Shown here piece by piece: positions 19,918-52,605 of a stretch of 64,000 nt of DNA. Both the position numbers and the translations under genes were made by a program. The DNA is from Firmicutes bacterium HGW-Firmicutes-14 (GTDB lineage Bacteria > Bacillota > Thermincolia > Thermincolales > UBA2595): NCBI GenBank assembly GCA_002840275.1, contig PHAB01000020.1, positions 1-64,000 on the forward strand. Direction: 5' to 3'. Every line of letters starts with the position of its first letter. The stretch's first letter is position 1. The notes beneath the pieces are model-generated. The model did not search any database and was not told where the DNA came from. It saw only the letters and a list, made by a program, of their open reading frames with translations.

Positions 19918-19947
19918 ATACCAATCCTCCCTTCCATATATAGTCTC

Positions 19948-34233: not shown

Positions 34234-35451
34234 ATGGCCAAACAAAAAATAACAGTTTTGTTTACAGCTCTATTGATGTTTGCTGCCGCGTTACCCGTTT
34301 GGGCGGCTGTCACAATTGAAGGTGTTTACACGAACTATGAATCACCCTCCACCAGCAGTGCAACGGTATATTACCAGGGGACTCCCCCCTTCACCATCTA
34401 CAGCAGCCCGGACGGTCAGGACTGGGTTCTGCGGGCTTCAGGAGTTAATGTCTATTCCTATATTTATACCGGGTGTACCAACTACGTAAATTACTACTTC
34501 AAGATTCAGGATAACCTGGGCAGTACTGCTTTGGCCCTTGCTTTTCCGCCAGACAACAACCCTCACGGGTCCTTCAAGTTTAACACGAGCTATTGCGCGG
34601 CCTGCCATGTAACCCATGCGGGGTCGGGGATATACCTGATGAAGTCTCCAAATGCCGTAGCCTTGTGTACCACTTGTCATGACGGGACCCAGAGCAAATA
34701 TGATGTCATGAACGGAAAAGTTAAACTGCCGGGGGGTGACTGGGGAGAAACTTCAGGCGGGCCTTTTGGGGCTTTACGGACAGAAGCGGACCTTCCGGCG
34801 GGTGAGTCAGTTGAATCCGCCGTTTATACAGGGTACACGTCAGAAAGTACCCAGCCTGTTACCAACAGTCCCACTTCCATTCACAACCTTGGAAGGGCTT
34901 TTAACACCGCGCCCGGAGGCGTCAGTGACAAAGAGGCCGGCATGGGCTGTGAAAGCTGTCATGACCCCCACGGTAACAGCCGGAATTTCCGTAATCTGAA
35001 AAACACCATAAAGGTAACAGATACATTATCAGTTGACATCAATTTTCAGGCCTTCGCAGAGACGGACCCGGCCAAATCCAGCGGGTATGGAGAGAACGTT
35101 ACATACAATACAGGCAGTATCTATTTCTGTTCCGCCTGCCACAGTGATTATAACCAGGCTTCCGGCAGCGGAAGTACTGCGGCGACAAGTACTAATCAGC
35201 CGGGATTCCCTCTTACTGCGTCTTCCATGAATAAGTTTATACATGCGGTAAATACACCCCTTTATTTTGAAGGGGAATACCTGACTACTTCCCTGCCGGT
35301 TGAGGTTGGGACCGGAATTAACACTGTTGTCTGCCTTTCCTGCCACCATTCCCACGGTACCGCCAGGACAGGTGCCAGTCAGCTGACCGGTTCAACGGCC
35401 CTTATAAGGATAGATGATCAGGGTGTCTGCCAGGAGTGTCACAAAAAATAA
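34234..35451 (+). CDS. Secreted 6-heme c-type cytochrome
   Basis: This 405-residue protein has a signal peptide (ITVLFTALLMFAAALPVWA), then an N-terminal beta domain of ~85 residues and six CXXCH heme sites: CAACH, CTTCH, CESCH, CSACH, CLSCH, CQECH. Several sit in the doubled-CXXCH pattern (CxxCHxxH; CxxCHDPHG). A CHDGTQSKYDV motif is shared with the other two FN3/heme proteins of the cluster. It is exported unfolded through Sec and matured by the ResB/CcsA system encoded downstream. It may be a short-range electron carrier in the wall zone. GAGGGG precedes ATG. Confidence 0.93.
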   Translation: MAKQKITVLFTALLMFAAALPVWAAVTIEGVYTNYESPSTSSATVYYQGTPPFTIYSSPDGQDWVLRASGVNVYSYIYTGCTNYVNYYFKIQDNLGSTALALAFPPDNNPHGSFKFNTSYCAACHVTHAGSGIYLMKSPNAVALCTTCHDGTQSKYDVMNGKVKLPGGDWGETSGGPFGALRTEADLPAGESVESAVYTGYTSESTQPVTNSPTSIHNLGRAFNTAPGGVSDKEAGMGCESCHDPHGNSRNFRNLKNTIKVTDTLSVDINFQAFAETDPAKSSGYGENVTYNTGSIYFCSACHSDYNQASGSGSTAATSTNQPGFPLTASSMNKFIHAVNTPLYFEGEYLTTSLPVEVGTGINTVVCLSCHHSHGTARTGASQLTGSTALIRIDDQGVCQECHKK

Positions 35452-35469: not shown

Positions 35470-36471
35470 ATGCAGGCCGGTACAGTGATAGAAAAAATCA
35501 GAAACAAAAAAGTAAATAAGAAAGACCTGGTCATAGTTATACTGTTATTTATAATCGCCGCCCTTATTTTCTTCGGCTGGAACTATTTTCGCACTAAACA
35601 GAATCCCATCAGCATAGACATTGCCCCGTCAGCCAAAGCGCATAAATACCTGTTCAGCATATATGAACCCGGGGTTTTAAGCAGGCCCCTGGGAGTTGCT
35701 GTCAGCCAGTGGGGTGACATAATTGTCGCCGATAGCGCTAACCATAGGATAGCAATTTTTGATGCAAACGGCAAATTTACCAAATTCATTGGTAAAATGG
35801 GCCAGGGTCCCGGAGAATTTAATTATCCAACGTCAGTAGCTGTTCACGGCGGGAAAATCTATGTGGCTGATTTTTACAACCAACGTGTACAGGCGCTTAA
35901 TTTTAACGGAGAACAATTAAGTGTGCTGCCTAATAGCAGGGATACCAGAGAAATTGGTTCCGGCATAATGCCGGTGACCCTGGCGGTTGATAAAAACGGA
36001 AAATTATATGTATCTGATGTAAGCCAGCAGAAAATTTTGATATTCGATGATAAAGGGAGATTCACCGGCTCTATTGGAAACGGAGGAAGCGGAGATGGCC
36101 AGATTTCATATGTTAACGGTATTGCCGTAAATGTTGACAGCGGAGAGGTCTGCCTTTCCAATTCCAATAATTCCAGGATTGATGTTTTTACCCTGGAAGG
36201 GAAATACATGGGACAGCGGCTTGGACCCAAACAAGTAGCCAACCCAAAGGGTATAGCTTTTGAAGAAAGTACAGGAATGCTTTATGTTGCCGATACCCTG
36301 GCCCATAGAATCCTGGTGAGCGACAGGGAAGGGAAGATCGTGGAATACATAGGCCGGAGAGGCCTGGATTCCGGGCAGTTTAATTTTCCGACAGCCGTGG
36401 CCATAGACAAAAGAGGACGGTTATATGTTGCGGACAGGGAAAACAACAGGATCCAGGTTTTTGACAGGTAA
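35470..36471 (+). CDS. NHL-repeat beta-propeller protein, membrane-anchored
   Basis: This 333-residue protein has one membrane helix (LVIVILLFIIAALIFFGW, about 20-38) and six NHL blades: IIVADSANHRIAIFD, IYVADFYNQRVQAL, LYVSDVSQQKILIFD, VCLSNSNNSRIDVF, LYVADTLAHRILV, LYVADRENNRIQVFD. The even spacing of about 48 residues fits a closed six-bladed propeller. It lies 18 bases after the 6-heme cytochrome and 25 bases before the next cytochrome, so it is clearly in the same operon. An external binding or scaffold role is inferred. Confidence 0.92.
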   Translation: MQAGTVIEKIRNKKVNKKDLVIVILLFIIAALIFFGWNYFRTKQNPISIDIAPSAKAHKYLFSIYEPGVLSRPLGVAVSQWGDIIVADSANHRIAIFDANGKFTKFIGKMGQGPGEFNYPTSVAVHGGKIYVADFYNQRVQALNFNGEQLSVLPNSRDTREIGSGIMPVTLAVDKNGKLYVSDVSQQKILIFDDKGRFTGSIGNGGSGDGQISYVNGIAVNVDSGEVCLSNSNNSRIDVFTLEGKYMGQRLGPKQVANPKGIAFEESTGMLYVADTLAHRILVSDREGKIVEYIGRRGLDSGQFNFPTAVAIDKRGRLYVADRENNRIQVFDR

Positions 36472-36496: not shown

Positions 36497-38974
36497 ATGC
36501 ATATACTTTACAGGCACATGAAAAAAAAGCCGGTTCTTCTAGCTGCTGTTACAGTTATATTTGCGGCAGCCGTTTTTGCCGGTTATTTCACCTCTCCCGC
36601 CATATCCCAGCAGGGTTCCTATTTTAGCGACCAGTTTGACCTGGGGAGTTATGACTGGACAGTAGTCAGGGGGGACTGGGCGGTAATTGACGGCCGGTAT
36701 ACGGAGAGGACTAAACCTGATACCGATATCACCTGGTCCGCGGCAGGTTCTTCCAGTTGGGTGGATTATTCTGTGGAAGCCAAGGTTTATTCTGATGATG
36801 CTTCAGTGGGAAAGATTTACCTGGCAGGCCGCTGGGTGGATGAGAATAACCATTACGGCCTGGAATACAGTGATAACGGATCTGGCGCTGCAGGCGCCGG
36901 TACGGCCTCGTTGATTTTATATAAAAAAAAGAACGGAGTCCGTACCAACCTTCTGACAATGCCGCGGTCCAATGATACAAAAGTGCCTTACATAGGGGAA
37001 GGGGCTTCGGCTGTAGCGGACAATCCTTATCCTGCCGTGTTAAAGCTGAAATTTGACGGGTCCAATATAACGGTATACTGTAACAGCCAGCAAATAGGTT
37101 TTAGTGCCGATACTTCTCTGTACTATGGACAGATTGCTTTGGGGGAATATAACAGGAACGTCTATTTTGATGATGTCTGCGTCTGGGATGTAACCCCGCC
37201 TAAACTTTATCCCCCTTCTGTTACGGAAGTAACGGGCACAGCGGCTTCCATCAGTTTCAGCACTGATGAGCTTACTTCTTATACAGTGGAATATGGGACT
37301 ACTGATTCATACGGTTCAAGTGTTACCCAGACGACCCGGGGAACGACCCATTCTGTGGACCTGACAGGTTTAAGCCTCAATACCGCCTACCACTACAGGG
37401 TCACTGTGACAGATGCCGCCGGTAACCAGACTGTCAGCACCGACCAGACATTTTCTACCTTAAGCGAGTTAGATACAGTAGCTCCAACTGTATATGATAT
37501 ATCTGCCGGTGATATTACAGCAACGACTGCAACCGTCAGCTGGAAGTCCGATGAACCGGCTAATTCCCTGGTCGAATGGGGTACCCAACCGGGAGTATAC
37601 AGGTGGTCCCTTTCATATGATTCCAGGACCGTTGATCATGCCGTTTTCTTAAAAGGGTTAGACGGACTGACCACTTACTACTATCGTGTCAAATCCAGGG
37701 ACTTGAGCGGCAACATAGGTTTGTCAGGAGAGTATTCCTTTACCACCCTTAAGGACTTACGGCCCAAGGTAACTGCCATAAAGACAGGCACAGACCCGGA
37801 ACCTGCCACGACTGTCAATTTTTCTGTTTACTGGCAGGATGTTCCTACGGCTGTCAGCTATAAAGTATATGTGTCTGCATCCAATGCCTGGGGTATACCG
37901 GTTAATGTGGCCGATACAGCGGGTAAGGAAGAGTATGTTTATACCAAAGATTCTTTAACACCATATACAAACTATTTTGTGCGTATTTATTCCGAAGATG
38001 CCGGGGGTGAGACAGGTTATTCAACAGTACGTGTTTTCCCGCCCAGCTTAAACCCCCACGGCAACCCCCACGGTTTTTATAATAAAAATGCCATTTTATG
38101 CGGGGATTGTCACTATACCCACTCAGCTTTAGGCCCGCGTCTTATTTCTGAAGTAAATGCCGATAGGATGTGTGTGACGTGCCACGACGGGACCCAGAGC
38201 AAGTACGATGTCCTGCGGGGTAAGGTTTTAGGGCCGACTTCCAGTACAACAAAAGACGAGAACGGGGTCTGGACGGATGTGTACCGGGCCACCTGGTATG
38301 AATCTATAGCGGGACCTTATGGGACCGTCGAAGGTTTTACAGTAAAGCAGAGTGCATATGTTCCCACATCCAGGCATGACCTTAATATTTACAACTATGC
38401 GGCCCCCGGTAACAATATTGAAAATGTGGAGACCTCTGATACACGTTTGTCCTGTGCTTCCTGCCACGACCCCCACGGTTCCGATAACTACCGGAACCTG
38501 CGTCCAAACATGAAGGTATGGAATGATGCAAATCCACCGTTAATTATTATGGAGGCCTATGCGGTAACAGACTCGGCCAACAAGAAGGAAGAGACTATTT
38601 ACGTCAGTGGGGCGGTAGAATTCTGCGGAGCCTGCCACAGTGATTTTAACCAGGGGGCCGGGGCCAGCCGGAATGCAATCAGTACTACGGCGCAGCCGGG
38701 GCTGACCCTGTCCAAGTCTTCAACACACATGTATATGCACCCCGTAAATGTTACCGCACAATATGTCACCAAGACAGCTTATGCTGTCCCAACCCCGGAT
38801 TATTTGCCTTATGAGAATGGAAAAATTATCTGCCAGACCTGCCATTTTACCCATGGTACAACTAACACCGGCACTCATGTCCGGAGAGACGGGTTTAACT
38901 CAACGTGCCTGAAGCGATTTGATAAAACCACCGGCTGTGAAGACTGTCATGATAAGACCAACCACCCGGACTAA
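36497..38974 (+). CDS. Jelly-roll/FN3/6-heme c-type cytochrome
   Basis: This 825-residue protein has a signal/anchor (VLLAAVTVIFAAAVFAGYF). A concanavalin-like jelly-roll of about 190 residues follows (YFSDQFDLGSYDWTVVRGDW...IALGEYNRNVYFDDVCVWDV; partial motif), then three FN3 domains (about 235-325, 330-420, 425-520). Six heme sites end the protein: CGDCH, CVTCH, CASCH, CGACH, CQTCH, CEDCH. The jelly-roll resembles the LamG/DUF1080 class that binds glycans or other surfaces, so this may tether hemes to the wall or a solid. The heme part is a close parallel to that of the 405-residue protein. AGGGGGAG precedes ATG 36497. Confidence 0.92.
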   Translation: MHILYRHMKKKPVLLAAVTVIFAAAVFAGYFTSPAISQQGSYFSDQFDLGSYDWTVVRGDWAVIDGRYTERTKPDTDITWSAAGSSSWVDYSVEAKVYSDDASVGKIYLAGRWVDENNHYGLEYSDNGSGAAGAGTASLILYKKKNGVRTNLLTMPRSNDTKVPYIGEGASAVADNPYPAVLKLKFDGSNITVYCNSQQIGFSADTSLYYGQIALGEYNRNVYFDDVCVWDVTPPKLYPPSVTEVTGTAASISFSTDELTSYTVEYGTTDSYGSSVTQTTRGTTHSVDLTGLSLNTAYHYRVTVTDAAGNQTVSTDQTFSTLSELDTVAPTVYDISAGDITATTATVSWKSDEPANSLVEWGTQPGVYRWSLSYDSRTVDHAVFLKGLDGLTTYYYRVKSRDLSGNIGLSGEYSFTTLKDLRPKVTAIKTGTDPEPATTVNFSVYWQDVPTAVSYKVYVSASNAWGIPVNVADTAGKEEYVYTKDSLTPYTNYFVRIYSEDAGGETGYSTVRVFPPSLNPHGNPHGFYNKNAILCGDCHYTHSALGPRLISEVNADRMCVTCHDGTQSKYDVLRGKVLGPTSSTTKDENGVWTDVYRATWYESIAGPYGTVEGFTVKQSAYVPTSRHDLNIYNYAAPGNNIENVETSDTRLSCASCHDPHGSDNYRNLRPNMKVWNDANPPLIIMEAYAVTDSANKKEETIYVSGAVEFCGACHSDFNQGAGASRNAISTTAQPGLTLSKSSTHMYMHPVNVTAQYVTKTAYAVPTPDYLPYENGKIICQTCHFTHGTTNTGTHVRRDGFNSTCLKRFDKTTGCEDCHDKTNHPD

Positions 38975-38986: not shown

Positions 38987-41900
38987 ATGAAAATTATCAA
39001 CATGGGAAAATCATATAAGAAAAGACTGCGGAGGTGGCTGCCTGCCATTATGGCAATTGCCGCATGCCTTATTATTCCTGCGGTGGCTTTCGGGTGGCCC
39101 AGCAACCATGTGGACAGTTCGGCCACCGGCGACCTTCCGTACTGTACTTCCTGCCACACCTACGAGGCGGGCTACCTTACCATTGAGTCAATTAACGGGA
39201 AAGCACCCCGGTCAAACAGTGTCACAATTACCCAGACAGGTACTTTTGACATGACATTCCGGACTGTGGGATTAGGCTATGGGCGTTTTACCGTGGCCGG
39301 AAGCATACAGGTACCGGATACTTCCAAATGGGCCCTGTCCCAGACAGGAGGCGGGGATACGCCCTGGTTTATTGCCCAGCAGTCAACTATCTACGGAGCG
39401 CCTGCCGAAAGCCCTTATATGTGGTCAACGGCTTTTCCTGCTGTGGATAATCCCAATTCACAGAAAGGGGTCACAATTGATGACGGATCAAGTTCAGGCG
39501 CATATATTGACCGGAACCTGACTGCCCATGATGAACAGTTTACAGTACATGTGGATGTGTATGACCAGCTTCCCCTTGGCACATACACCCTTAAAATATG
39601 GGGAGTAGGTACTTCCAGCGCCGGTAAGCTGTCATATAACGAGCAGATTTTAAGCGTTAATGTCACCAATGATACTACTAAACCGGATACACCGACGGGC
39701 CTCAGCGCTTCTCCGGCATCTGCTTCCAGTATCGGCTTAAGCTGGAATGCCTCCAGTGACCCGGAGCCGAATTCGACCGGTATTGACGGGTATGAGGTTT
39801 ACCGGGCTCCCGATGAGAGCGGCAGTCCCGGGGCATATGAATATGTGGGATACACATCCTCTGCTTCATATACGGATGATGAACTTAAATCAGGTACCAA
39901 GTATCATTATATAATAACGGCTGTGGATAACGCCGGTAATATCTCTGACTACAGCGCCCCCGCTTCCGCCACCACCGGCACCGGCGCCCGGGAAGACGGG
40001 GCACCCTCCGCCCCGACAGGGGTAAAGGCTTTTATGGTTGACCAGGAAAACGGTTCCAATAAGGTTGTCCGGATTCAGTGGAATAACAATACAGAGGGTG
40101 ACATTGTCGGTTACAAGGTCTATCGGGCCACGGAACTGGCCGGTTCATATGCCCTGATAACCCAGTCCCTGGTCACAACCATGACCGCTGTGGAAATCAA
40201 TGCCTCTCCCAGGGTTGTGGTTAATTCGGTGTATTATGTTGACACTGTTTTTAAATACGGGACAACTTATTACTACAAGGTTGTTGCCGTGGATGTTGAC
40301 GGTAAAGCATCGGTTATGAGCAGCTACACGGCTATCACACCGGCCGTTGACCAGGGGGCCGTTAACCCCCACGGCGGTTATGATGACCCGGCCAATGCCG
40401 GATTGTGTGGTAATTGTCATTCCACCCACTCGGCCAGGGGATCGGAACTTATTTACTACAGTTCAATCACTGATTCATGCTATACCTGTCATGACGGTTC
40501 CCAAAGTAAATATAATACCAAGGCTGCTTTTGACCCTGTCAGCAACCCTTCCCATCATAAGGTGCCTGAGGGCAGGTATTCCTGTGATGTGTGCCATAAC
40601 CCCCATTACAGTTCACCCATCACAATAAAAGTGGATGGGGATACTGTCAATGAAACTGTTTACCGTTTGCTGTCCGCCGTTTCGAAGGAGGACGGCCTGA
40701 TTAAAAGGCGGGGCAATGAGTTCTGCTGGGCCTGCCACGGTGTCAATTCCGACCTTCCAAACCCCTTTGGGCAGGACCATAAGACAGCCTTTATAAATTC
40801 TAAACATAATACAGTGGCCCCAACATCAGAGGAAACACAGATAATTTGCCTTAACTGCCACGCCCCGCATGGTTCTAAGGATTACCCTTTGATTATTACG
40901 GCTAATTCAGCCAATTTCTGCATAACCTGCCACCAGGACAACGGGTTCACAGAGACAAAATTATATGATGACAGTGATACCTTTACCGGACTATATCTTG
41001 ATAACCTGTCAAATAAGTATCTGGGAACTATCCATGAACAGAATTTTTATGGACGGAATACCTGTACTATGTGCCATGAACCGCACGGTCACATTACTAA
41101 CCGGTATATGCTCAGGGATCCATATAATGACCATTACAATAACAGTGGCAATGGTAATAATGTTAACGGTTATCCCTATGGACCGGTTGATTGGAGTGCG
41201 GATTGGAATACAGAAAGCAAGACCATATGCTTTAGGTGTCACGATTCCCAGTATTATGTAGGGATAAACGGAGCTGGAAGCTCCACGGTAGGCAGTAATT
41301 TTGGCAACGGAAACGGCAAGAATTATCACGACCATTCGACAAAGCTAAAGGTTAGCTGCCGGGCCTGCCATGACCCCCATTCAGGCCAGAGCAGGTTTCA
41401 AAATTCCAGCCCCGGTTGGCAGTTGGATAATGCCCATTACATAAACTTTGACTGGGCCTACCGGACAGGAATTGCCGCTGAGAGTGTTTATGAAAACACA
41501 CTGGCGTTTATCCCGGCATATGGGGTCAACCTGGAGGAAACGGGGTATTCCTGTGCTGTCACCTGTCATAACCTGGATCACCATATCTCCGGCGGTACTT
41601 TTAAATCCTATATCCGTACCGGAAATTCACCGGCCCTCAAGTGTGCGGCCTGTCATGATTTTGATACCTTTGACAGGAACTCACGCCATCCTGTTCTGGA
41701 AAATGGTGATGAAAGTAACGTTATGGTCACCTGTGAGCAGTGCCATATTGAAGACCATACCAAGCATGACGAATCAAATCCTTATGGTCTCAGGGCAACC
41801 CTGACAAGCAATTGGGCATATACACCGGATTCAACCACATTGGGTACAGTTATTGACCCCGATACAGGCGAGGAAGTTCCTGCATATGGGGAGTTCTGCT

Positions 41901-44900
41901 GGCACTGCCATGGGGCCGGACCTGACAACAGGACTATATTAAGTGACCAGTACACCAAGTTTATCAACAAACCCCACTCTTTACTGGAGAGGGATGGTTC
42001 CAAGAATCCTTACGGACCCGGCATTGATAACCCGTGTATGAAATGTCATGAACACCATTCATCAACTAATGTCAGGTTGATAAGGACGGTCCTGGACGGT
42101 GTCGCTATTGACGCTGCCAGCGATACGGGAAAAATTAATGCCTGCATGGCCTGCCATGACGGCTCGCCGGGAGATGTGGACATCTCTGCCAAGTACAACG
42201 CTGCCAGCCATGGAGGACACTATATAAAGAGCGATCCGACCAAGAAATTGCTGTGTACCGAGTGTCATGACCCCCATGGTTCTGTTAACGTTTCCTATTT
42301 GCTGGATACCAGCAACAAGTATAATACGGGGATTACTTTCCCCACTGATATCCTGGTCAAAGGGCAGTCCCGGGACTTTTGCCTGGCCTGTCATCCCACA
42401 TCAGAGGAACCGGAGAGGGTATATAATACTGTTTATACCATCAAGGTCAATGAATCCGTCAACTATAAAGTATATATTCAGCCCCTGCCTTATCCTGACA
42501 GGATAGCCGACCATAAGTCAGCGGGCGCCCGGGAGTGTGTTGTCTGTCATGATGCCCACAAGCCCTGGCCGCCCACGGGCGGGGAGGACAGGTGTTATGA
42601 CTGCCACAGTTCGGACGGAGAAGCATATGACATCAGAGCACTGGCCGGCCTGGATTCTGAAACGGAGGGGTACTATCCCGGCCTGAATTCCCACCACAGG
42701 ATAACTGATGCCAGCACAACAAGCAACACCTGTGTTGAACGGTGTCACACCCCGCACCCCCACAGTCCCCGGGCAGACTTGATTAAGACAGATCATCTGA
42801 TAGGGGACGAAAAATCAATGTGCCTGAAATGCCATTCCACAGTGGCCGAAGAAACGTACAAGTCACCCTACACCATAGATGCAGCCCAATATGCCCTGGG
42901 GCCCCATGATTATGTGATACCTATCAGGATATTCTCTGACAATAGTACTTTCAAGGGTAACTGTGACAAGTGCCATGTACCTCATGGTTCTACCTTTGCA
43001 CCCTTGCTGAAACTGCGGAAGGACGAGCTTTGCGTTGACTGCCATAACGGTGTGACCAGAGACGGGTCCGGAAACATTATCAGGGACATCAAGACCCAGT
43101 ATGAGGCCCAGGGGCACAAATACACCGAATACCCCACTGCCAAGATGTATTGTGACGAATGTCATGTGCCTCACGGTTCCACCAATGACAACTACCTGCG
43201 GGATGCAGACACATATGCGCCTACCCAGACCGTTACTCTGGTTTCCGACGGGGTATACCAGCAGCAGCAGTTCCCGGAGGGAATTTCGGGTGTTGATTAC
43301 AGTCCCCGTAAATTCTGCATTGTATGTCATATAGAATACCGGGAGGGAGTAACTTCATACGTTTACTATTCCAGTGAGACATCTCCCGGGTCCTATGTTG
43401 CCATTCCCGGTATCCGCAAGGTGCTGGACCACGTGACAATTAATGAACACGTATATGGTGACACAACTGAGTGTACGATATGTCACAATGCCCATGACCC
43501 GGAACCTGTGGGCAGTGATTATGACTGCTTCAACTGCCATGGAAAAGACGGTTACGCCACCAGGATAGAACCCCTGACCGGCTACGGCGGTTATGGTGGG
43601 GGATATGAGTGGCCGACGGTGGCCAAAGCGACATATCACCCGATCTATGATGCCAACAGCAAAGGCACTAATGACTGTATGGTTATGTGCCACAAGCCCC
43701 ATATGCATGACCCGCGGGCCAACATGCTTCTTGACAAGCGGGCAACGGCGGGTGATACAACCGCTCCGGCAGCGCCTGCAAGCCTGGATGTAAATGCCTC
43801 CAGCGCTGTCCAGGCCGACCTGTCATGGCCGGCATCAGAATCACCGGATGTTTTTGGCTATTTTGTATACCGCAAGATTGGCGCCGCCGGGACCTGGCAA
43901 AAATACGGTGCAGTGAACAATACGGTCTATAATGATGAAGGACAGACATCGGTTACCGTCTGGTTCTATGACGGGGGTCTGAAACCGGGTACAACCTATT
44001 ATTACAAAGTGTCAGCCAAGGACCGGAATGAGAATGAATCGGGACAAACAGCTGAAGTGAGTGTGACACCTTCCCTGGCTTCTGATTCGACATCACCCGC
44101 CACACCGGCTAACCTGAAAGCCACGGTGCCGACCACAGCTGGCAGTACCCGGCTTTCCCTGAGCTGGAGCGCGGCCACTGATAACTACAGGGTTGTTCAA
44201 TACTATGTCTACAGGGGCGATGCGGAAGATTTTATCCCGTCAGCAAGCAACCTGGTTGCCAAGACTGGTCTGACCAGTGTCACCGATTCCGGGTTAACCC
44301 CGGAGACGGGGTACTACTACAGGGTTTCGGCTGTTGACGAAAACGGAAATGTCTCATCTGCGGCCGCGCCTGTTTATGCAAAGACCGATTCCGCCGATAA
44401 GTATGCTGCCAGGGGGCTTTATTCCGAAGACGGTGATATCCTTGAAATCAGGGATATAGATGGCAATTACACCACAGATTTTGCCCTGGGCTCAAATATA
44501 ATCGTGAAAGTCAAGAGTGACGATGGGTTAGACAATGCTCAGACTAAGAGAATATACTTTAAAGATCACCTGAATAACATAATTGCCACCTATGAAACTG
44601 CTATGTACTCTACAGACGGCATTTATGAAGTTTTCACCTTTAATATCCAGCTGCCCACCCAAACCGCTGACGGAATGTCGTTGTACAGCGGCGCCTATAT
44701 GCTGCAGGCGGATGTTTATACAAAAACAGCAGTACATCTTACCCCATACCAGGTTATCAGGTACGGAGCGACTGCCAAAGGTTTCCGCTTTTACAAGGAT
44801 TCGGCCAGGACCCAGGAGGCCTTTTCATTCCCCCCAAATACTACTGTCTATGCCAAAGTGTTCACTGATTATCCCGGTGGTACAACTTATGTTTCCCCAT

Positions 44901-47900
44901 CCCTGACCACGTGGAAGTTTAACGGTTCCCAGCTGAGTTATACTAACAACCTAACCTGGGAGAGCCCGGCCTATGAATACGGTTTCGCCAGGTTCAGGTT
45001 TACGACCCCCAGCATTGCCAGTGGAGCCCAGGAGGGCTGGTGGTACATGTTCCGGCTGTACGCCGAGAGCAGTGCCAAGCGGAACCCTACAGTTGCCGAC
45101 TATGGGGCCATGTTGATGGTCAAGTCCAATGACACCACACCCCCCGAAGCCCCCTCTTCAGGTCCTGCCCTGACACCGGGCAAAACTGATATGAAACTGG
45201 CCTGGGGTGCTTCGGCCAACAGCGCCGGGGATTTAGGAGCTTATAGTATTTATCGTTCCGAAGACGGGACCAATTATCACCTGATAGGTTCTACCGCTTC
45301 CACCGGGTTTATGGATTACGGACTCAAGCCGGGAATAACCTATTATTACAGGGTCGCTTCTGTGGACCTGCATGGAAACATTTCCGCACCGGTTTCCGCC
45401 AGTGCGGCGACCCAGGCTTACAGTATCCTCAGTGATACTGTACCGCCCAACCGGCCGGAAAAACTGACTCTTGGCACCCCCGAACGTTCCCAGGTATTGC
45501 TGACCTGGACCCACGGCTCGGCTGAAACTGACGGGGTGGTCGGATATGCCGTGTACCGCAGCAGAAATAATGTAGAATACCTCCGGGTAGGAAACAGCTT
45601 CGACCTGTCCCTGACGGATATGGGCCTGCGCGGAAATACCCTTTATTATTACAAGGTCGGAGCCTATGACCAGACAGGCAATTTATCTGACCTGACCGCA
45701 CCGGTTTCCACAATTACCGGCAGGACCGGTGACGATTCAGTGGAAGGAACACTCTGCCTGTCATGCCACGAAGAAGGACGGACGCCCCCGGACGGTTATA
45801 CCGTGGACCACAGGATATCTTCGGCTTACCGGAAGAGCAAACACAACGTGGATTTCCCTGTATACACCATGAAGGACGGAAGCCAGTTTGAAAGCAACTG
45901 TACCAAGTGTCACGTGCCCCACGGCTCAGATTATCCGTATTTACTCAGGGCTCCTGACAACAATGAACTGTGTGCCATCTGCCATACTGACCCGTCAGGG
46001 GGTGGAAGGTATTCCGGTATTACCGAATTCAACAAGACCGCCCACGGCCAGCCGGCCACCGGGTTCAGTTACGAGTTCCAGTCTGACACACCCCGGTACT
46101 GGGTCAGTGAGAGGGTTTATGCCGACGCGGGCAGGTGCTATAACTGTCACGACCCCCATGGCAGGTTTGTGCCGGGGACAGAGAATACTACCCAGGAATA
46201 CATTAAGAGCTCCGCGGTGGCCGGGACCGGTGACAACCTGAACGAACTCTGTTACGGCTGCCACGGGGACAGCTATACCTATAATGAATACGGTGGTGAG
46301 ACTGTTTATAAGGAGACTTATCACGGCAAGACAGATACTAATCCTGAGACAGGGCTGCCCTATAATGACAAGATGTGGCTGAGTGACTACGGAAACGGGG
46401 AGTGCATAAACTGCCACGAACCCCACAAGGACGCCGAAGGGGCCATGCTTCGCTACCCGGTTAACGTGACTGATGCTGATAAAAACAAGCTGTGCCTTAC
46501 CTGTCATGATCGGGAAGATATTCTTGTTGACACCGGTTTGTTCGATGGCTCAGGAGTCTATAACAATTCCAAGCACGCCCTTAATGCCCAGTGGCTGGAG
46601 GACTTTAATACCGTCGGCGGCCAGGTCTATAACAAGACCACGTGGAATAAGGGAGTCTGCCTTGTATGCCATAACTCCCACGGCCGCACAACAGACGGCA
46701 GTACCAGCGCAGATAAAGTAATACCAAAGATGCTGGTAGTCAATGACGGCCCCAACAGCGAAATCTGCAATAAGTGCCACGAATATCCGTCTATCGCCGA
46801 CATAACTGTGGGTTACCCGGGTTTCTCCACCTTCAGCCAGGGTGTCCATAAAAGCAAGGCCCAGTGGCCCGGGGGCAGGTATTATCCGGAACCTGCTTCA
46901 GCCGAAGTCAAAGGGAAATGCATCAACTGCCATGACCCCCATGGGACAGCCGTGATAGATGCCTGGGGCAATGTCACAAACATTGTGGGCAACGTCTTTG
47001 ACTGGGAAGAAAAGGTCTGCTATGAATGTCATGACGGGATAACGGCCGCCAGCAACCTGAAATTCTGGGAAGAACAGGGTATCGGCCACCTGCCGGGGGC
47101 CTCTTACCTGGTGCATTCCTTTGATGAAGACATTAAAACCGCGGAACGGCACGTGGAGTGCCTGGATTGCCACAATGTCCACGCTGTTCAGGATTTTGAC
47201 GCCACAGAAGACCTGACCACCAGGTTGTCCAAGGCCTTTAAAGGAGTCAGCGGTGTTAAGGTAACAGGTTCGCCTTCGGTTAATACGCCGGATCCCACCA
47301 GCCAGACATGGAAGGATAATCCTTACGCCGTAAGCGGATACAGTTACCTGTTTCTTGAAAATGTAGATACAGAGCCTGCAGAATTGAGAGAATACATGGT
47401 CTGCTTTAAATGCCATTCCAGTTATTCAGGAGCGACAACGGGTGGAAAGCGGATAATTGCTTATTTGAATCCGAATAATGTTTCAACTCACGGCTTCAGT
47501 TTTACTGAAAAGACATCTTTCATTAACACTAAAATCAATTCGATTCCTGATAAGCTGTTTCCCAATGATACGTCTAAACCGGGTTATGCCTTCCATCCCA
47601 GTAACCCTAATCAGCGTTTTAACCTGACATGCTCTGATTGTCACGGAAATCCGGATACCACCGGCGGCAAACCAAGGGGGCCTCATGGTTCGAACTGGGA
47701 GTACATATTGAAGGGTAATCCCCGAAGTTCCAGCTTCTGCAATGAGTGCCATCCGGCAACACAATATGGAAGTGATTCTGCAGCTGCAACATTGTCTGAC
47801 AGTGACCCGGGAGGCGCATATCACCGGAAGTCAAACCATTATGGTGATTTGCAGAGCAAGATCGATACAAATGCCGCTGAAGCATTTATGTCCACCTTCG

Positions 47901-48151
47901 GCACAAATGTCTGTCGCTACTGCCACTTTGCCGGCTATATGCAGAACAGCACCAAATATGTCTCTGTCCATGGCGAAAATGCGGCGTTTTCCACTGCATC
48001 AAACGGCAGTTACAGGGCCGAAAAGGGACTCAACGGTTACTTCATCAAGACGGTTGACGTGGTAGGCGGACAAGGGCAAAGGTCGTGTGATACAATGGCT
48101 GTAACGGGAATATCATCTTATTCCTGCAGCCACGGATCTAAATCATATTAA
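38987..48151 (+). CDS. Giant FN3/multiheme c-type cytochrome (3054 residues, ~45 heme sites)
   Basis: It has a signal peptide (residues ~18-38) and a first heme site at Cys53 (CTSCH). A beta domain runs to ~225, then FN3 domains at ~229-330 and ~335-454. Heme block A (474-1569) holds 25 CXXCH and three CX3CH sites (Cys856, Cys1249, Cys1564). FN3 domains at ~1590-1805, a non-heme beta region (~1805-2045) and two more FN3 (~2048-2247) follow. Heme block B (2257-2980) holds 16 CXXCH. Total: 42 CXXCH plus 3 CX3CH. Many sites have the CHxPHG doubled-CXXCH form. AGGTGAGG is spaced for ATG 38987. Large secreted multiheme proteins of this type serve long-range extracellular electron transfer; that role here is inferred. 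The frame is intact over 9.2 kb. Confidence 0.95.
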   Translation: MKIINMGKSYKKRLRRWLPAIMAIAACLIIPAVAFGWPSNHVDSSATGDLPYCTSCHTYEAGYLTIESINGKAPRSNSVTITQTGTFDMTFRTVGLGYGRFTVAGSIQVPDTSKWALSQTGGGDTPWFIAQQSTIYGAPAESPYMWSTAFPAVDNPNSQKGVTIDDGSSSGAYIDRNLTAHDEQFTVHVDVYDQLPLGTYTLKIWGVGTSSAGKLSYNEQILSVNVTNDTTKPDTPTGLSASPASASSIGLSWNASSDPEPNSTGIDGYEVYRAPDESGSPGAYEYVGYTSSASYTDDELKSGTKYHYIITAVDNAGNISDYSAPASATTGTGAREDGAPSAPTGVKAFMVDQENGSNKVVRIQWNNNTEGDIVGYKVYRATELAGSYALITQSLVTTMTAVEINASPRVVVNSVYYVDTVFKYGTTYYYKVVAVDVDGKASVMSSYTAITPAVDQGAVNPHGGYDDPANAGLCGNCHSTHSARGSELIYYSSITDSCYTCHDGSQSKYNTKAAFDPVSNPSHHKVPEGRYSCDVCHNPHYSSPITIKVDGDTVNETVYRLLSAVSKEDGLIKRRGNEFCWACHGVNSDLPNPFGQDHKTAFINSKHNTVAPTSEETQIICLNCHAPHGSKDYPLIITANSANFCITCHQDNGFTETKLYDDSDTFTGLYLDNLSNKYLGTIHEQNFYGRNTCTMCHEPHGHITNRYMLRDPYNDHYNNSGNGNNVNGYPYGPVDWSADWNTESKTICFRCHDSQYYVGINGAGSSTVGSNFGNGNGKNYHDHSTKLKVSCRACHDPHSGQSRFQNSSPGWQLDNAHYINFDWAYRTGIAAESVYENTLAFIPAYGVNLEETGYSCAVTCHNLDHHISGGTFKSYIRTGNSPALKCAACHDFDTFDRNSRHPVLENGDESNVMVTCEQCHIEDHTKHDESNPYGLRATLTSNWAYTPDSTTLGTVIDPDTGEEVPAYGEFCWHCHGAGPDNRTILSDQYTKFINKPHSLLERDGSKNPYGPGIDNPCMKCHEHHSSTNVRLIRTVLDGVAIDAASDTGKINACMACHDGSPGDVDISAKYNAASHGGHYIKSDPTKKLLCTECHDPHGSVNVSYLLDTSNKYNTGITFPTDILVKGQSRDFCLACHPTSEEPERVYNTVYTIKVNESVNYKVYIQPLPYPDRIADHKSAGARECVVCHDAHKPWPPTGGEDRCYDCHSSDGEAYDIRALAGLDSETEGYYPGLNSHHRITDASTTSNTCVERCHTPHPHSPRADLIKTDHLIGDEKSMCLKCHSTVAEETYKSPYTIDAAQYALGPHDYVIPIRIFSDNSTFKGNCDKCHVPHGSTFAPLLKLRKDELCVDCHNGVTRDGSGNIIRDIKTQYEAQGHKYTEYPTAKMYCDECHVPHGSTNDNYLRDADTYAPTQTVTLVSDGVYQQQQFPEGISGVDYSPRKFCIVCHIEYREGVTSYVYYSSETSPGSYVAIPGIRKVLDHVTINEHVYGDTTECTICHNAHDPEPVGSDYDCFNCHGKDGYATRIEPLTGYGGYGGGYEWPTVAKATYHPIYDANSKGTNDCMVMCHKPHMHDPRANMLLDKRATAGDTTAPAAPASLDVNASSAVQADLSWPASESPDVFGYFVYRKIGAAGTWQKYGAVNNTVYNDEGQTSVTVWFYDGGLKPGTTYYYKVSAKDRNENESGQTAEVSVTPSLASDSTSPATPANLKATVPTTAGSTRLSLSWSAATDNYRVVQYYVYRGDAEDFIPSASNLVAKTGLTSVTDSGLTPETGYYYRVSAVDENGNVSSAAAPVYAKTDSADKYAARGLYSEDGDILEIRDIDGNYTTDFALGSNIIVKVKSDDGLDNAQTKRIYFKDHLNNIIATYETAMYSTDGIYEVFTFNIQLPTQTADGMSLYSGAYMLQADVYTKTAVHLTPYQVIRYGATAKGFRFYKDSARTQEAFSFPPNTTVYAKVFTDYPGGTTYVSPSLTTWKFNGSQLSYTNNLTWESPAYEYGFARFRFTTPSIASGAQEGWWYMFRLYAESSAKRNPTVADYGAMLMVKSNDTTPPEAPSSGPALTPGKTDMKLAWGASANSAGDLGAYSIYRSEDGTNYHLIGSTASTGFMDYGLKPGITYYYRVASVDLHGNISAPVSASAATQAYSILSDTVPPNRPEKLTLGTPERSQVLLTWTHGSAETDGVVGYAVYRSRNNVEYLRVGNSFDLSLTDMGLRGNTLYYYKVGAYDQTGNLSDLTAPVSTITGRTGDDSVEGTLCLSCHEEGRTPPDGYTVDHRISSAYRKSKHNVDFPVYTMKDGSQFESNCTKCHVPHGSDYPYLLRAPDNNELCAICHTDPSGGGRYSGITEFNKTAHGQPATGFSYEFQSDTPRYWVSERVYADAGRCYNCHDPHGRFVPGTENTTQEYIKSSAVAGTGDNLNELCYGCHGDSYTYNEYGGETVYKETYHGKTDTNPETGLPYNDKMWLSDYGNGECINCHEPHKDAEGAMLRYPVNVTDADKNKLCLTCHDREDILVDTGLFDGSGVYNNSKHALNAQWLEDFNTVGGQVYNKTTWNKGVCLVCHNSHGRTTDGSTSADKVIPKMLVVNDGPNSEICNKCHEYPSIADITVGYPGFSTFSQGVHKSKAQWPGGRYYPEPASAEVKGKCINCHDPHGTAVIDAWGNVTNIVGNVFDWEEKVCYECHDGITAASNLKFWEEQGIGHLPGASYLVHSFDEDIKTAERHVECLDCHNVHAVQDFDATEDLTTRLSKAFKGVSGVKVTGSPSVNTPDPTSQTWKDNPYAVSGYSYLFLENVDTEPAELREYMVCFKCHSSYSGATTGGKRIIAYLNPNNVSTHGFSFTEKTSFINTKINSIPDKLFPNDTSKPGYAFHPSNPNQRFNLTCSDCHGNPDTTGGKPRGPHGSNWEYILKGNPRSSSFCNECHPATQYGSDSAAATLSDSDPGGAYHRKSNHYGDLQSKIDTNAAEAFMSTFGTNVCRYCHFAGYMQNSTKYVSVHGENAAFSTASNGSYRAEKGLNGYFIKTVDVVGGQGQRSCDTMAVTGISSYSCSHGSKSY

Positions 48152-48159: not shown

Positions 48160-48184
48160 GACAGGTGGTACCAAGCCACCTGTC
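48160..48184 (+). terminator. Hairpin after the giant cytochrome gene, possible partial terminator
   Basis: GACAGGTGG (48160-48168) pairs perfectly with CCACCTGTC (48176-48184) across a 7-base loop. Only a weak T tract (CTGTTATTG) follows. It may lower, rather than stop, transcription into resB/ccsA or protect the upstream mRNA. Confidence 0.55.
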
Positions 48185-48224: not shown

Positions 48225-49217
48225 ATGAAAACCGGCAACCTTGCCAAATTGGCCCTGGGATTGATGCTGGCCCTGCTTTTCGGTATATTGACTGATTTCT
48301 ATATTTTCCCCGGAAAAAATCAGGCCAGGTTGTTTTTCCGCTCAGGTCTGATGGTGGCGCTGTTGTTTGGCCTGGCGGCGAGTCTGCTTGCCTGTAACCT
48401 GACCAGGGTTTCAGTAATGTCCAGGCAGGCCAAAATTACCGGTTCAAACACCGCCAAACGGGGTTCAGTCATTTTTCACCTGGGGCTTGTACTGATTCTT
48501 TTTGGCTTTGGCATTTCCGCCCTCTTTGGCATGAAGGGACGGGTGATGATCCCGGAGGGGGTTGCGGTCAGGTTCCCTTCCGAAATAAGCAGTGTGGAAA
48601 CAGGAAAATTGCATAGTTTTGAGGAATACACCGTGGGTTTAAATGAAATGGAACTGGTCAGGGAAGGTGAAAACATCGGACAGGTGCGAAGCCATGTGGA
48701 TTTTATAACCAATGGCCAATCCGGCCGTCGTGTTATTGAGATTAACCGCCCGGCAAAGTTCAGGGGTTATTACTGGCGCTCAATGAACTGGGGATATTCC
48801 GTTCATTTAATAATAAAAAGCGAAGATATGACAGTATTAGACAATTTCTTAAATATTGCCACCCACAGGGACGGGTTATATTACGACAGGTACTCTGTTC
48901 CTGACCTGGGTGAATTCCAGGTGCGTTTTTACGCCAATATGCCGGTTCAGGGCAAGCCGGCGGAAAAAGCCGTTTTCCCTGACAGGCCCGCAGTGGAAAT
49001 AAAGTTATTAAGTTCCGATACCTCCGGTGCGGAACCCGGGGGCCCAATAATACCTCTGGGTCAGACAGGGAAACTGGGCAATTACACGGTTTCATTTTCG
49101 GAGCACCGGTTTTGGGAAGAATTTGATGTTTCCAGTGACCCCGGTGAATCCTTTATCTTCCTGGGGAGTATTCTGGCAGTTGCGGGGTTGTTTTTGAGGG
49201 TTGTTTTTAGGGGTTGA
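48225..49217 (+). CDS. resB: ResB/Ccs1-like cytochrome c biogenesis protein
   Basis: This 330-residue protein has membrane helices at ~8-30, ~38-60 and ~82-105, a large external beta domain, and the family end DVSSDPGESFIFLGSILAVAGLFLRVVF. ResB with CcsA/ResC forms the System II heme lyase that attaches heme to CXXCH outside the membrane. It is placed directly after the giant cytochrome and before ccsA. Family members are often longer, and the helices are fewer than in fused forms. AAAGGAG precedes ATG. Confidence 0.9.
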   Translation: MKTGNLAKLALGLMLALLFGILTDFYIFPGKNQARLFFRSGLMVALLFGLAASLLACNLTRVSVMSRQAKITGSNTAKRGSVIFHLGLVLILFGFGISALFGMKGRVMIPEGVAVRFPSEISSVETGKLHSFEEYTVGLNEMELVREGENIGQVRSHVDFITNGQSGRRVIEINRPAKFRGYYWRSMNWGYSVHLIIKSEDMTVLDNFLNIATHRDGLYYDRYSVPDLGEFQVRFYANMPVQGKPAEKAVFPDRPAVEIKLLSSDTSGAEPGGPIIPLGQTGKLGNYTVSFSEHRFWEEFDVSSDPGESFIFLGSILAVAGLFLRVVFRG

Positions 49218-49260: not shown

Positions 49261-50106
49261 ATGTCTGAACCGGAAATGCTCTTTTTTTGGATTACTGTTA
49301 CCAGCTATGTCCTGGTGACCCTGCTGTATATTAACTGGATTACGGGAAGCAGGATATCTGCTGCAAAGGCTGAAAGAGCGCTGATCTGGAGTGGTTTCCT
49401 GGCCAATACTGCAGTGGTTGTAACCCGGACCGTCACTTCAGGGCACCTGCCTGTCAGGACGTTATATGAATTGAATGTTACTGTCGCCTGGCTTATAGTA
49501 GGGGTATACCTGACAGCCCGGAGGGTTTACAGCAATACATCACTGGTCGGATTAATTTCCGTTCCTTTTGCTTTCCTGGTAATGGGCTGGGGTTATGCCG
49601 AGAATCCCGCCATTGAACCCCTGACCGCCGCATACAAAAGCAGCTGGCTGGCAGTTCACGTGCTTTTTGCCCTGCTTTCCACGGCATGTTATGTTTTTGC
49701 CACCGGGACAAGCATCATGTATTTGCTGAGGAACCGGTTCACCGGGGCAGCCGGGGTAAAATACAGGTTACTGCCGGATCCGGCTGATTTGGACCGAATT
49801 TCGGTCAGGCTGGTCATGTTCGGTTTTCTGTCAGGCACCATAATGCTGCTAAGCGGTTCCATATGGGCGAAACTGCTGTGGGGCAGTTACTGGAGCTGGG
49901 ATCCGGTGGAAACATGGTCTCTGATCAGCTGGTTGGTATACGGTATTTATCTTCACCTGTATTCTACTTTTGGCTGGAGGGGAAATAAACTGGCCTGGCT
50001 GTGCCTGGGATGCCTGGCGACCAATATCATCAGTTTCTGGGCTGTAGGTATCGTCACACCCGATACCTATCATAACCTGGAACTTATTACCCGCCCTGTT
50101 GACTAA
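49261..50106 (+). CDS. ccsA: CcsA/ResC-like cytochrome c heme lyase subunit
   Basis: This 281-residue protein has eight predicted helices and the tryptophan-rich heme-binding motif WGSYWSWDPVETWSLISWLVYGIYLHLY (positions about 202-230). Flanking His residues (VHVLFALLS; LHLYSTF) are placed for heme ligation. It transports or presents heme for ligation in System II, partnered by ResB. TAAGGAGG precedes ATG. It overlaps a possible earlier start of the next NHL-type protein. A dedicated pair beside ~60 heme sites fits a high maturation demand. Confidence 0.93.
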   Translation: MSEPEMLFFWITVTSYVLVTLLYINWITGSRISAAKAERALIWSGFLANTAVVVTRTVTSGHLPVRTLYELNVTVAWLIVGVYLTARRVYSNTSLVGLISVPFAFLVMGWGYAENPAIEPLTAAYKSSWLAVHVLFALLSTACYVFATGTSIMYLLRNRFTGAAGVKYRLLPDPADLDRISVRLVMFGFLSGTIMLLSGSIWAKLLWGSYWSWDPVETWSLISWLVYGIYLHLYSTFGWRGNKLAWLCLGCLATNIISFWAVGIVTPDTYHNLELITRPVD

Positions 50107-50137
50107 AGACCGCTGGCAACGAATAGAGGGGAATCTT

Positions 50138-51067
50138 ATGGCCGCAAAAAACATGCCAAAATATACATATGGATTTTTGGTGATAGCTGCACTGGCTTTG
50201 ACGGCTGCTGTGGCCTGGATGATTTTCGGCCGGTCCGGACCGGCTGTAAAATTAAAACACAATACATTGAACGAAAAAGACCCGCCTGTTTACCTGGGTG
50301 AAATTAAAGTTCCTGATAATAAGAAACCTATTTGGGTTTATGTTTATGAAGAGAATCTTTTTGTCAGTTATACAGAAGAAGAAAACATAGATATCTTTTC
50401 TTTAACCGGTGAGAAGTTAAGAGAATTAAGGGCCAAGATTACAAAAAGCGAAGGGGCTCCCCAGGGGATGCTGAAAACCTCCAGGGGCATGCTGGTAGCT
50501 GACTATCAAAACGGGGGAATCGGGTTTTTTGCAGATAATGGCCGGTTGCTGGATGCTTATTATGTGACTGCTGACAACAGGCCGATAAAACCGGTCAGTG
50601 CCGCTGTTTACAATGACGTGCTGTATATTACCGATGTAAATATTAACGGTTGGCTGGCTGTTTTGCAGGATGGAGAAATGATCATGGAAATTAAGGGCGA
50701 TGACGAAAAAAAGAGAATGGAATTTCCCTACGGTATTGCTGTAACCGGTGATGGCCGGGTCATAGTCACCGACCCGGCGGGAGGACGGGTTAAGGTTTTT
50801 AACTGTGCCGGGTGGTATGCCTTTGATTTACCCGCTTCCGAGTTAGGCATGAAGAACCCCCAGGGTGTTATCATAGACGGCCTGGGCCGGATACACTTAG
50901 TCGATAACGGCTCCGGGTATGTATTTGTGTTTGATAATTCCGGCAATTACCTGTTTAAGTACGGAGAGGGGTTAAAAAACCCCTCAAATATAGCTGCCGA
51001 CCGGGAGAACAGGGTTATTTACATAGCCAATACAGAGGATGAGAGTATTTCAATCTGGGGGTACTGA
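50138..51067 (+). CDS. NHL-like beta-propeller protein, membrane-anchored
   Basis: This 309-residue protein has an N-terminal membrane helix (YGFLVIAALALTAAVAWMIF). A divergent propeller follows with blades such as VFVSYTEEENIDIFSLTG-like, MLVADYQNGGIGFF, LYITDVNINGWLAVL, VIVTDPAGGRVKVF, IHLVDNGSGYVFVFD and IYIANTEDESISIW. It is related to the two NHL proteins upstream but less regular. GAGGGGAATCTT is placed for ATG 50138 rather than TTG 50099. It is the last gene of the cytochrome cluster on this strand before an unrelated radical SAM gene. Confidence 0.88.
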   Translation: MAAKNMPKYTYGFLVIAALALTAAVAWMIFGRSGPAVKLKHNTLNEKDPPVYLGEIKVPDNKKPIWVYVYEENLFVSYTEEENIDIFSLTGEKLRELRAKITKSEGAPQGMLKTSRGMLVADYQNGGIGFFADNGRLLDAYYVTADNRPIKPVSAAVYNDVLYITDVNINGWLAVLQDGEMIMEIKGDDEKKRMEFPYGIAVTGDGRVIVTDPAGGRVKVFNCAGWYAFDLPASELGMKNPQGVIIDGLGRIHLVDNGSGYVFVFDNSGNYLFKYGEGLKNPSNIAADRENRVIYIANTEDESISIWGY

Positions 51068-51162: not shown

Positions 51163-52605
51163 ATGGCAAGGGTTATATTAGTTACCCCCGACTACCACTG
51201 TGGAGTGGTTGAATCGGCAGGACGCTGGCCTCATATTGGCTTTGTATATATAGCAGGAGAGTTGCGTAAGTACGGGCATGAGGTAAAAATATATGATGCC
51301 ATGGCCAAAAATCATAATTTGGATCAAATTCTGGCCAACATTATAAATTATGACCCTGATGTGGTAGCCACTACCGCGTATACAGCGACTGTACCGGCGG
51401 CGATTGAATTACTGCGCAGGGTGAAAGAATGGAAAAACCAAGCATTTACAGTAATGGGAGGGGTACACCCCACCTTTTGTTATAACGAAATTTTAACTGA
51501 GTCCCCTTTTATCGATGTAATAGTACGTTATGAAGGGGAATTTACTTTTCCCGAACTTATTGCTGCCTGGGAAAAAGGAGAGGATTTCAAAAAAATTGAT
51601 GGGATTGCGTTCCGGCGAAAAGGCAGGGTGACAGCTACTACTGCCAGACCATTTATAACGGACCTTGATAGTCTAAATCCTGCCTGGGATTTACTTGACT
51701 GGAATGACTACACCTTTTATATTCAGCCGGGTTCGCGTTTAGCAATTATTTCCACTTCCCGGGGCTGTCTTCATAATTGTGCCTTTTGTTCCCAGCAAAA
51801 GTTTTGGAACCGGACGTGGCGGGCCCGCAGTGCGGAAAGCGTTGCCGCTGAAATTGAACTGCTGGTCCAAAAATACGGGGTAGAAGTGTTTTTCATTTCC
51901 GACGAGTATCCTACTGCCGACCGTGAACGCTGGGAGGCAATCCTGGACCGGCTGATTCAAAAAGACCTTGGGGCCATGTTCCTTATCGAAACCAGGGTGG
52001 ATGACATAGTGCGGGACAAGGATATCATTGATAAATACAGGCAGGCGGGCATAATTCATATTTACGTGGGGATTGAAGCAACTTCCCAGGATACCCTGGA
52101 TACTTTTAAGAAGGGTTTCGGTGCCAATGATTCAAAAAGAGCCCTTGATATTATCCACAGCGCCGGCATAGTCAGTGAAACCTCGTTTATTTTGGGCACT
52201 CCTTCCGACACAAAGGACAGTATTAACGAAACTTTGGCCCTGGCCCAGGCTTACAACCCTGATTTTGCCCATTTTCTGCTGCTGGCCCCATGGCCGTATG
52301 CTGATATGTATGACGAACTTGCACCTCATATCTGTACAAGGGACTATGCAAAGTATAACCTCGTCGAGCCGGTAATCAAACCCGGTAAAATGACTACTGA
52401 TGAGCTGTTCTCCGAAGTATTAAACTGTTATAAAAAATTTTACTTTAGAAAGATACCTGAATGGGTCAAATTAAAGAATGATTTCAAACGGCGGTATGCC
52501 ATTCAATCCATGAAAGCTATCATGGATAACTCTTTTCTTAAAGACCATGTTCTGAAACTTGGAACTATGCCAAAAACCGTGGAAAAGCTCCTTAAGTCTG
52601 ATTGA
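51163..52605 (+). CDS. Cobalamin-binding radical SAM protein
   Basis: This 480-residue protein has an N-terminal B12-binding-type domain (~1-135, VILVTPDYHCGV...HIGFVYIAGELRKYGHEVKIYDA, MGGVHPTFCYNEIL). A radical SAM domain follows with CLHNCAFC (Cys202, 206, 209 bind the [4Fe-4S] cluster), then FFISDEYPTADRERW and YVGIEATSQDTLDTFKKGF. This is the BchE/P-methyltransferase-like group, which performs methylations, cyclisations or ring changes. The real substrate is unknown. GGAGGAG precedes ATG. Its stop codon overlaps the -35 box of the RND-pump promoter. Confidence 0.9.
   Translation: MARVILVTPDYHCGVVESAGRWPHIGFVYIAGELRKYGHEVKIYDAMAKNHNLDQILANIINYDPDVVATTAYTATVPAAIELLRRVKEWKNQAFTVMGGVHPTFCYNEILTESPFIDVIVRYEGEFTFPELIAAWEKGEDFKKIDGIAFRRKGRVTATTARPFITDLDSLNPAWDLLDWNDYTFYIQPGSRLAIISTSRGCLHNCAFCSQQKFWNRTWRARSAESVAAEIELLVQKYGVEVFFISDEYPTADRERWEAILDRLIQKDLGAMFLIETRVDDIVRDKDIIDKYRQAGIIHIYVGIEATSQDTLDTFKKGFGANDSKRALDIIHSAGIVSETSFILGTPSDTKDSINETLALAQAYNPDFAHFLLLAPWPYADMYDELAPHICTRDYAKYNLVEPVIKPGKMTTDELFSEVLNCYKKFYFRKIPEWVKLKNDFKRRYAIQSMKAIMDNSFLKDHVLKLGTMPKTVEKLLKSD

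Follow-up and report, generated by a model that had tools for sequence, protein, structure and literature searches.

A conserved operon encoding a 45-heme giant cytochrome, a probable component of extracellular electron transfer in a Thermincolia bacterium

How electrons pass through the thick wall of Gram-positive bacteria, which measures 20–80 nm (PMC7911101), is an open question. The closest described system is the ImdcA-PdcA-CwcA-OcwA pathway of Thermincola, whose published proteins carry 6–10 hemes (PMC7911101, PMC7096707) and whose hexaheme CwcA has been modelled on OmcS at 18% identity (PMC7911101), and a 2022 comparative paper assigned transport across Gram-positive walls to proteins of 6–9 hemes only. 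Giant cytochromes are already known but their roles are not: a review (PMC7096707) names a 58-heme protein of T. ferriacetica, a 69-heme protein of Desulfuromonas soudanensis and an 86-heme protein as giants of undetermined role, with full heme loading unproven. In ANME archaea, the S-layer giants MHC-A/B combine 20–80+ hemes with non-heme domains, and the gene for MHC-B adjoins its own heme-attachment paralogue, CcmF2 (PMC9012536). The osc nanowire-assembly operon of Geobacter, to the extent that Shen et al. 2025 is described in PMC13194489 and PMC12977616, accompanies the OmcS nanowire system and comprises the prolyl isomerase OscH, OscEFG, the morphology protein OscD and the polyheme cytochromes OscI/J, of which GSU2495/OscI carries 26 hemes.

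Here, we analysed a stretch of 64,000 nucleotides from Firmicutes bacterium HGW-Firmicutes-14 (contig PHAB01000020.1, positions 1 to 64,000; hereafter the window) that contains the gene of a giant multiheme cytochrome. At a probability of roughly two in three, we read its product as an exported polyheme cytochrome that serves this Thermincolia bacterium as the electron-carrying hub in a module for extracellular electron transfer. New in this analysis are the conserved operon, its CwcA/OmcS-related hexahemes, a gene-cluster grammar that is repeated nearby, a discordant evolutionary history and a tandem octaheme repeat. No description of the family was found in the literature searched, and supplementary tables may list the giant as an unnamed cytochrome.

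The gene occupies positions 38987–48151 on the plus strand and is identified by its frame, motif count and orthologues. Translation gives one unbroken frame of 3054 residues (about 330 kDa) with zero internal stops, starting from an ATG at 38987, with AAGGTGAGG a short way 5′ of it, or from a GTG at 38978 as a slightly longer alternative. An assembly artefact or gene fusion as the origin of so long a frame was ruled out, because full-length orthologues occur in other, independently assembled genomes. The product carries 45 heme-attachment motifs (42 CXXCH and 3 CX3CH), compared with a mean of 0.11 and a maximum of 2 CXXCH in 300 shuffled sequences of the same composition, and these are laid out as a single site at residue 53, 28 sites between residues 474 and 1564 and 16 sites between residues 2257 and 2976; the CX3CH sites lie at residues 856, 1249 and 1564. 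The intact frame with its coordinates and the motif counts with their division into blocks are thus as a preliminary description had given them. Both PF09699, the family of paired or doubled CXXCH multiheme cytochromes (231.7 bits, curated cut-off 20.6), and TIGR01905 (182.7 bits, cut-off 25.2) match the protein, which with 45 motifs and a signal-peptide-like N-terminus also qualifies as a giant multiheme c-type cytochrome (one exported chain bearing over about 20 motifs). It is set apart from the MtrC/OmcA decahemes by its 45 hemes, by matching PF22113 only in part and by having no conserved lipobox.

Hydrophobicity predicts a Sec-type signal peptide at about residues 1–36 (38987–39094, with a cleavage site placed by prediction), which is the sole hydrophobic stretch of the protein and after which the orthologues pick up at WP[ST]NH or WPNGK. 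The following N-terminal domain (39095–39673), delimited by motif and alignment, carries a single heme at CTSCH (residue 53), has His181 as its only invariant non-motif histidine, and matched nothing in Pfam or NCBIfam. Pfam places FN3 domains 1 and 2 at 39674–40354, ahead of heme block 1 (40406–43696), whose 28 sites are spaced by 18–65 residues at about 40 residues per heme. FN3 domains 3 and 4 (43754–44401; Pfam), a heme-free beta region of 216 residues (44384–45031; alignment) and FN3 domains 5 and 6 (45029–45724; Pfam and AlphaFold) separate it from heme block 2 (45755–47926), where the motif count is 16, the density 48 residues per heme and the composition mostly one of successive CXXCH pairs. 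The six FN3 domains of the preliminary description all match Pfam fn3; three score over the curated cut-off, at 43.9, 29.2 and 35.5 bits, while the other three, at 21.2, 22.6 and 19.8 bits, fall short of it. The beta region between FN3-4 and FN3-5 had no match in Pfam and is the fastest-changing segment of the protein (33% identity). In the C-terminal tail (47927–48148), the non-heme cysteines 3034, which is invariant among the orthologues, and 3047 could form a disulphide.

Within block 1, hhalign resolved two tandem octaheme units, B (residues 935–1262) and C (residues 1255–1600), together at 41789–43786, which align with E = 1.4e-47 and 34% identity over 263 columns. Each terminates in a CX3CH; unit A, located 5′ of both, has diverged further and terminates in the first CX3CH. 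Most other pairings of heme segments gave values of about 1e-17, where the common ground is motif bias only; the other strong pairs, D1–D2 (1e-28) and C–D1 (1e-27 over 82 columns), reflect paired-motif repeats, and the segments of pair D2–E overlap by construction. AlphaFold2 left the heme regions unmodelled (mean pLDDT 27 for block 1 and 37 for block 2 with FN3-5/6), and FN3-5/6 themselves came out as beta sandwiches at a pLDDT of about 60–80. Profiles of blocks 1 and 2 searched against the PDB did not retrieve OmcS, their best matches being short stretches of 6qvm, 7tfs and 6r2q.

The giant lies sixth in a same-strand series of genes separated by small gaps or overlaps: a TPR protein (32495–33187), an NHL beta-propeller protein (33226–34191), a hexaheme cytochrome (34234–35451), a second NHL beta-propeller protein (35470–36471), an FN3-extended hexaheme cytochrome (36497–38974), the giant, a ResB-like cytochrome c synthesis protein (48225–49217), a CcsA/ResC-like assembly protein (49261–50106), a third NHL-type propeller protein (50099–51067) and a B12-binding radical SAM protein (51163–52605), the last adjoining the operon in most relatives. 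A perfect 10-bp inverted repeat with a weak T tail (48160–48184, plus strand) stands between the giant gene and resB and could be an attenuator or an mRNA-stabilising hairpin. Control of the operon by a riboswitch was considered and rejected, as an Rfam scan gave no match nearby. Synteny is kept in every genome with a complete neighbourhood: the order is identical in G004, in G008 and in the examined part of the G007 contig, G009 has the same order without the radical SAM gene, and the Carboxydocella-like loci retain NHL, hexaheme, giant, ResB, CcsA and radical SAM genes. Further ResB–CcsA pairs stand beside other large multiheme cytochromes on contigs C27, C37 and C58 of this genome (G000), and one pair per large-cytochrome cluster seems, from these gene neighbourhoods, to be the rule. 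The large-cytochrome region on C37 also holds a 2420-residue, 15-heme protein with domains of the FN3-like phosphatase N-terminal type. A B12-radical-SAM gene likewise adjoins the ResB–CcsA genes of the CwcA cluster in G009, and the protein may act on cytochromes or heme.

Both hexahemes of the operon are paralogues of CwcA. The protein at 34234–35451 is 27% identical to the CwcA-position protein (E of about 1e-22 to 1e-25). A more distant paralogue is the FN3-extended protein, whose C-terminal half is 34% identical to the 34234–35451 hexaheme (23–25% identity to CwcA-position proteins, E of about 1e-12 to 1e-13). The family has six invariant CXXCH columns, and its profile matches OmcS (6ef8) with E = 1.5e-8, profile positions 137–376 aligning with chain positions 32–374, so that both proteins, having six hemes and a full-length profile match, are of the OmcS type. 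The profile was needed for this relation, a single-sequence search with the CwcA-position protein P0005 having found no match to OmcS. Matches of this kind do not identify true nanowires or prove filament formation (PMC12977616).

A cluster of the ImdcA–CwcA type starts 10 kb 3′ of the giant operon, from 60800 into the rest of the contig. It opens with a 10-heme NapC/NrfH-type membrane cytochrome (60800–61912, plus strand), an orthologue of ImdcA and the probable electron entry of this separate cluster, and a 12-heme NapC/NrfH-type cytochrome (61943–63178, plus strand), followed by a 17-heme protein, TPR, NHL, a hexaheme, a 15-heme protein and a protein of at least 40 hemes that reaches the contig end; in G009 the cluster runs on into ResB, CcsA and radical SAM genes. 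The giant operon repeats the grammar of this cluster, since the order TPR, NHL, hexaheme, large multiheme cytochrome, ResB, CcsA and radical SAM is common to both, but it has no NapC-type gene of its own, that gene standing 10 kb away within the ImdcA–CwcA cluster itself. The incomplete protein, a second giant just past the window (G000:C36:70464-74327, or L026:15465-19328), packs at least 40 hemes into 1288 residues and has homologues of 58 hemes in G009 (2119 residues) and 73 hemes in G007 (2602 residues); contig C58 carries a fragment with 14 hemes that may represent the missing end. In the genome regions examined, the multiheme ORFs number at least about 32 and together hold about 377 motifs.

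Compared with the Thermincola pathway, the giant operon stands as a paralogous module of its own, probably from the same bacterial class. It shares with that pathway two CwcA paralogues and the gene order of the CwcA cluster, and a 45-heme orthologue of the giant (72% identity) is present in G009, but the giant is not among the published 6–10-heme proteins (PMC7911101, PMC7096707). Like the other giants it would carry dozens of hemes on one exported chain, yet it has no full-length homology to the 58-heme T. ferriacetica protein (about 23% over 499 residues), and it differs from the known giants in its FN3 spacers, its two heme blocks and a family that could be traced over seven other genomes. 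Its gene resembles that of ANME MHC-B in adjoining heme-attachment genes, here ResB–CcsA; judged by the descriptions of MHC-A/B, it differs in having neither an S-layer domain nor a C-terminal transmembrane helix and in using System II rather than Ccm. OscD of the osc operon is beta-propeller-like, and the giant operon likewise combines propellers, OmcS-type hexahemes and a large polyheme cytochrome, a likeness drawn from descriptions of osc. The differences are the size of the giant, about 330 kDa with FN3 domains as against about 70 kDa for OscI, and a prolyl isomerase, which was not found among the giant-operon proteins scanned.

Orthologues were sought in a 399-genome sample of the phylum and by a scan of one genome per species, the latter using six peptide patterns and thus reaching close relatives only. 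The preliminary description had proposed a search for full-length homologues, and four other Thermincolia genomes proved to carry them with 45 of 45 sites: G009 (71–72% identity) and G004, G007 and G008 (56–57%). G005 has a partial giant orthologue at a contig end, G013 and G059 encode Carboxydocella-like versions of 2792–2799 residues at about 40–41% identity, and within the phylum sample the giant was confined to these seven genomes (G004, G008 and G005 duplicate the records L002, L003 and L004, and each was counted once). The one-genome-per-species scan recovered part of this set and, in addition, a Coriobacteriaceae homologue (L005), which was set aside as weak, with only 25% identity over parts. 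G009 is probably Thermincola ferriacetica/potens, judging by its 58-heme protein and by a cluster on its first contig in which a decaheme fits Tfer_0070 and the sixth gene, a hexaheme, fits Tfer_0075; G059 is probably Carboxydocella, having a frame of 1476 residues, close to the 1486 of a published 17-heme protein. Should G009 be correctly identified, an orthologue exists in a cultured, electrode-respiring Thermincola, which would make the family amenable to practical testing. The class Thermincolia was represented by ten genomes in the comparison, and because the complete genome G002, from the same family, has an ImdcA homologue and no giant, the giant is an accessory rather than a core component.

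All 45 motif columns are filled in the four other full-length Thermincolia proteins, and all three CX3CH remain CX3CH. The Carboxydocella-like pair keeps 44 of 45 sites, one of the three CX3CH having become CX3CK; in L022 and L024 this change reads GYACYLNCK at alignment column 962, and the locus has an extra CcsA-like gene. Non-motif histidines are invariant in 72% of cases, as against 16–48% for the other tabulated residues except cysteine, and the invariant ones, 33 per 28 hemes in block 1 and 14 (20 within Thermincolia) per 16 hemes in block 2, fit the expectation for bis-His ligation. Identity is 57–62% in the heme blocks and 33–52% in the linkers. Between G004 and G008 the giant has a dN of 0.053, a dS of 0.72 and a dN/dS of about 0.07, lowest in the heme blocks (about 0.06) and 0.18 in FN3-1/2. 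Such a pattern looks like the signature of a protein that uses its full heme set, and the retention of position and motif type at 45 of 45 sites, with purifying selection so strong, is an argument that complete loading is important. That every motif and the distal histidines are kept also favours covalent heme attachment, if indirectly.

The history of the operon departs from that of its host. Percent identities from the window to G004 and to G009 are 90.8 and 89.0 for rpoB, 76 and 65 for the ImdcA homologue and 76 and 66 for the adjacent polyprenyl synthase, in agreement with family membership, whereas the giant leans the opposite way (56 and 71), as does every operon gene compared. Two histories would account for this: transfer of the complete operon between the lineages, or differential loss of two old copies.

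Because all sites are kept in relatives and CwcA/OmcS-type hexahemes and dedicated heme-attachment genes stand beside it, the giant probably takes an active part in moving electrons out of the cell, and the operon names the hexahemes and the ResB–CcsA pair as candidate partners. From this arrangement we infer heme occupancy and the direction and partners of electron flow. The giant would be exported, receive about 45 hemes from the ResB–CcsA pair of its operon, and act outside the membrane with the two hexahemes and the NHL and TPR assembly proteins. Blocks 1 and 2 would form two separate short wires of 28 and 16 hemes, with the FN3 and beta stretches as non-conducting spacers or binding surfaces. 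Electrons would enter from the quinol-oxidising NapC-type cytochromes of the neighbouring ImdcA–CwcA cluster and exit to the hexahemes or to an outside acceptor.

The preliminary description went further and saw a surface protein spanning the wall, its heme beads spaced by FN3 domains so as to suit the crossing; a single molecule would then thread the peptidoglycan and conduct alone from membrane to surface. Blocks of 28 and 16 hemes in a 330-kDa protein have the right scale for this, and 40 and 48 residues per heme should be dense enough for continuous chains within each block. Nevertheless, heme-free gaps divide the protein, one of 421 residues separating the first heme from block 1 and one of 693 residues separating the two blocks, and the latter, at a conserved 670–693 residues in every full-length orthologue, would leave a single extended chain with a gap far beyond tunnelling distance; this argues against one continuous intramolecular wire and against the FN3-spaced bead design, and FN3 domains 1 and 2 are missing altogether from the Carboxydocella-like orthologues. 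Nor does the protein show how it would be held in the wall: scans found no SLH, other S-layer domain, LPXTG, conserved lipobox or second transmembrane stretch, so that the surface and wall-spanning placement is not supported beyond the Sec-type signal peptide, and a position in or on the wall is a presumption. A lipoprotein was also considered and rejected, since the lipobox-like IAAC (residues 24–27) is not conserved in orthologues. The wall-crossing role has, moreover, already been proposed in Thermincola for a polymer of the hexaheme CwcA, whose paralogues lie in the giant operon. We therefore consider the single-molecule wire unlikely; what survives of the earlier proposal is an extracytoplasmic polyheme conduit, made likely by the operon and the constraint on heme sites.

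Two dense, separate heme pools with heme-free domains between them could serve for storage no less than for transport, and the hemes could buffer electrons outside the membrane instead of conducting them over distance, but retention of every motif position and much of the spacing at 40% identity suggests an ordered geometry beyond what storage needs, and the linkage with OmcS-type hexahemes also points elsewhere; we give a capacitor little credence. A terminal reductase for a specific substrate, such as a metal or an oxyanion, acting through special hemes, would draw on the three CX3CH conserved as such and on the CX3CK of the Carboxydocella-like proteins, reminiscent of the lysine-ligated CXXCK of the active-site heme of NrfA. 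However, CX3CH is present in other multiheme cytochromes without a catalytic role, the supply of invariant histidines indicates mostly six-coordinate hemes, and domain and PDB profile searches matched no reductase catalytic domain known so far, which makes this the least probable explanation. A tentative and rather doubtful extension of the electron-transfer hub would make the operon a Gram-positive nanowire module, complete in itself and horizontally transferable, in which the hexahemes polymerise into wires, the giant is a dedicated wall-embedded base or connector, and the operon's own CcsBA is adapted to CX3CH.

The host is presumably Gram-positive, and the spore-forming habit supposed in the preliminary description is supported by two CotE genes in the window, which lie adjacent at 19261–20481 (minus strand) as spore coat genes of the CotE type with a YheC/D ATP-grasp gene alongside. 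Rfam also identified a tRNA-Sec gene at 59080–59173 (minus strand; 75 bits), from which the organism probably uses selenocysteine.
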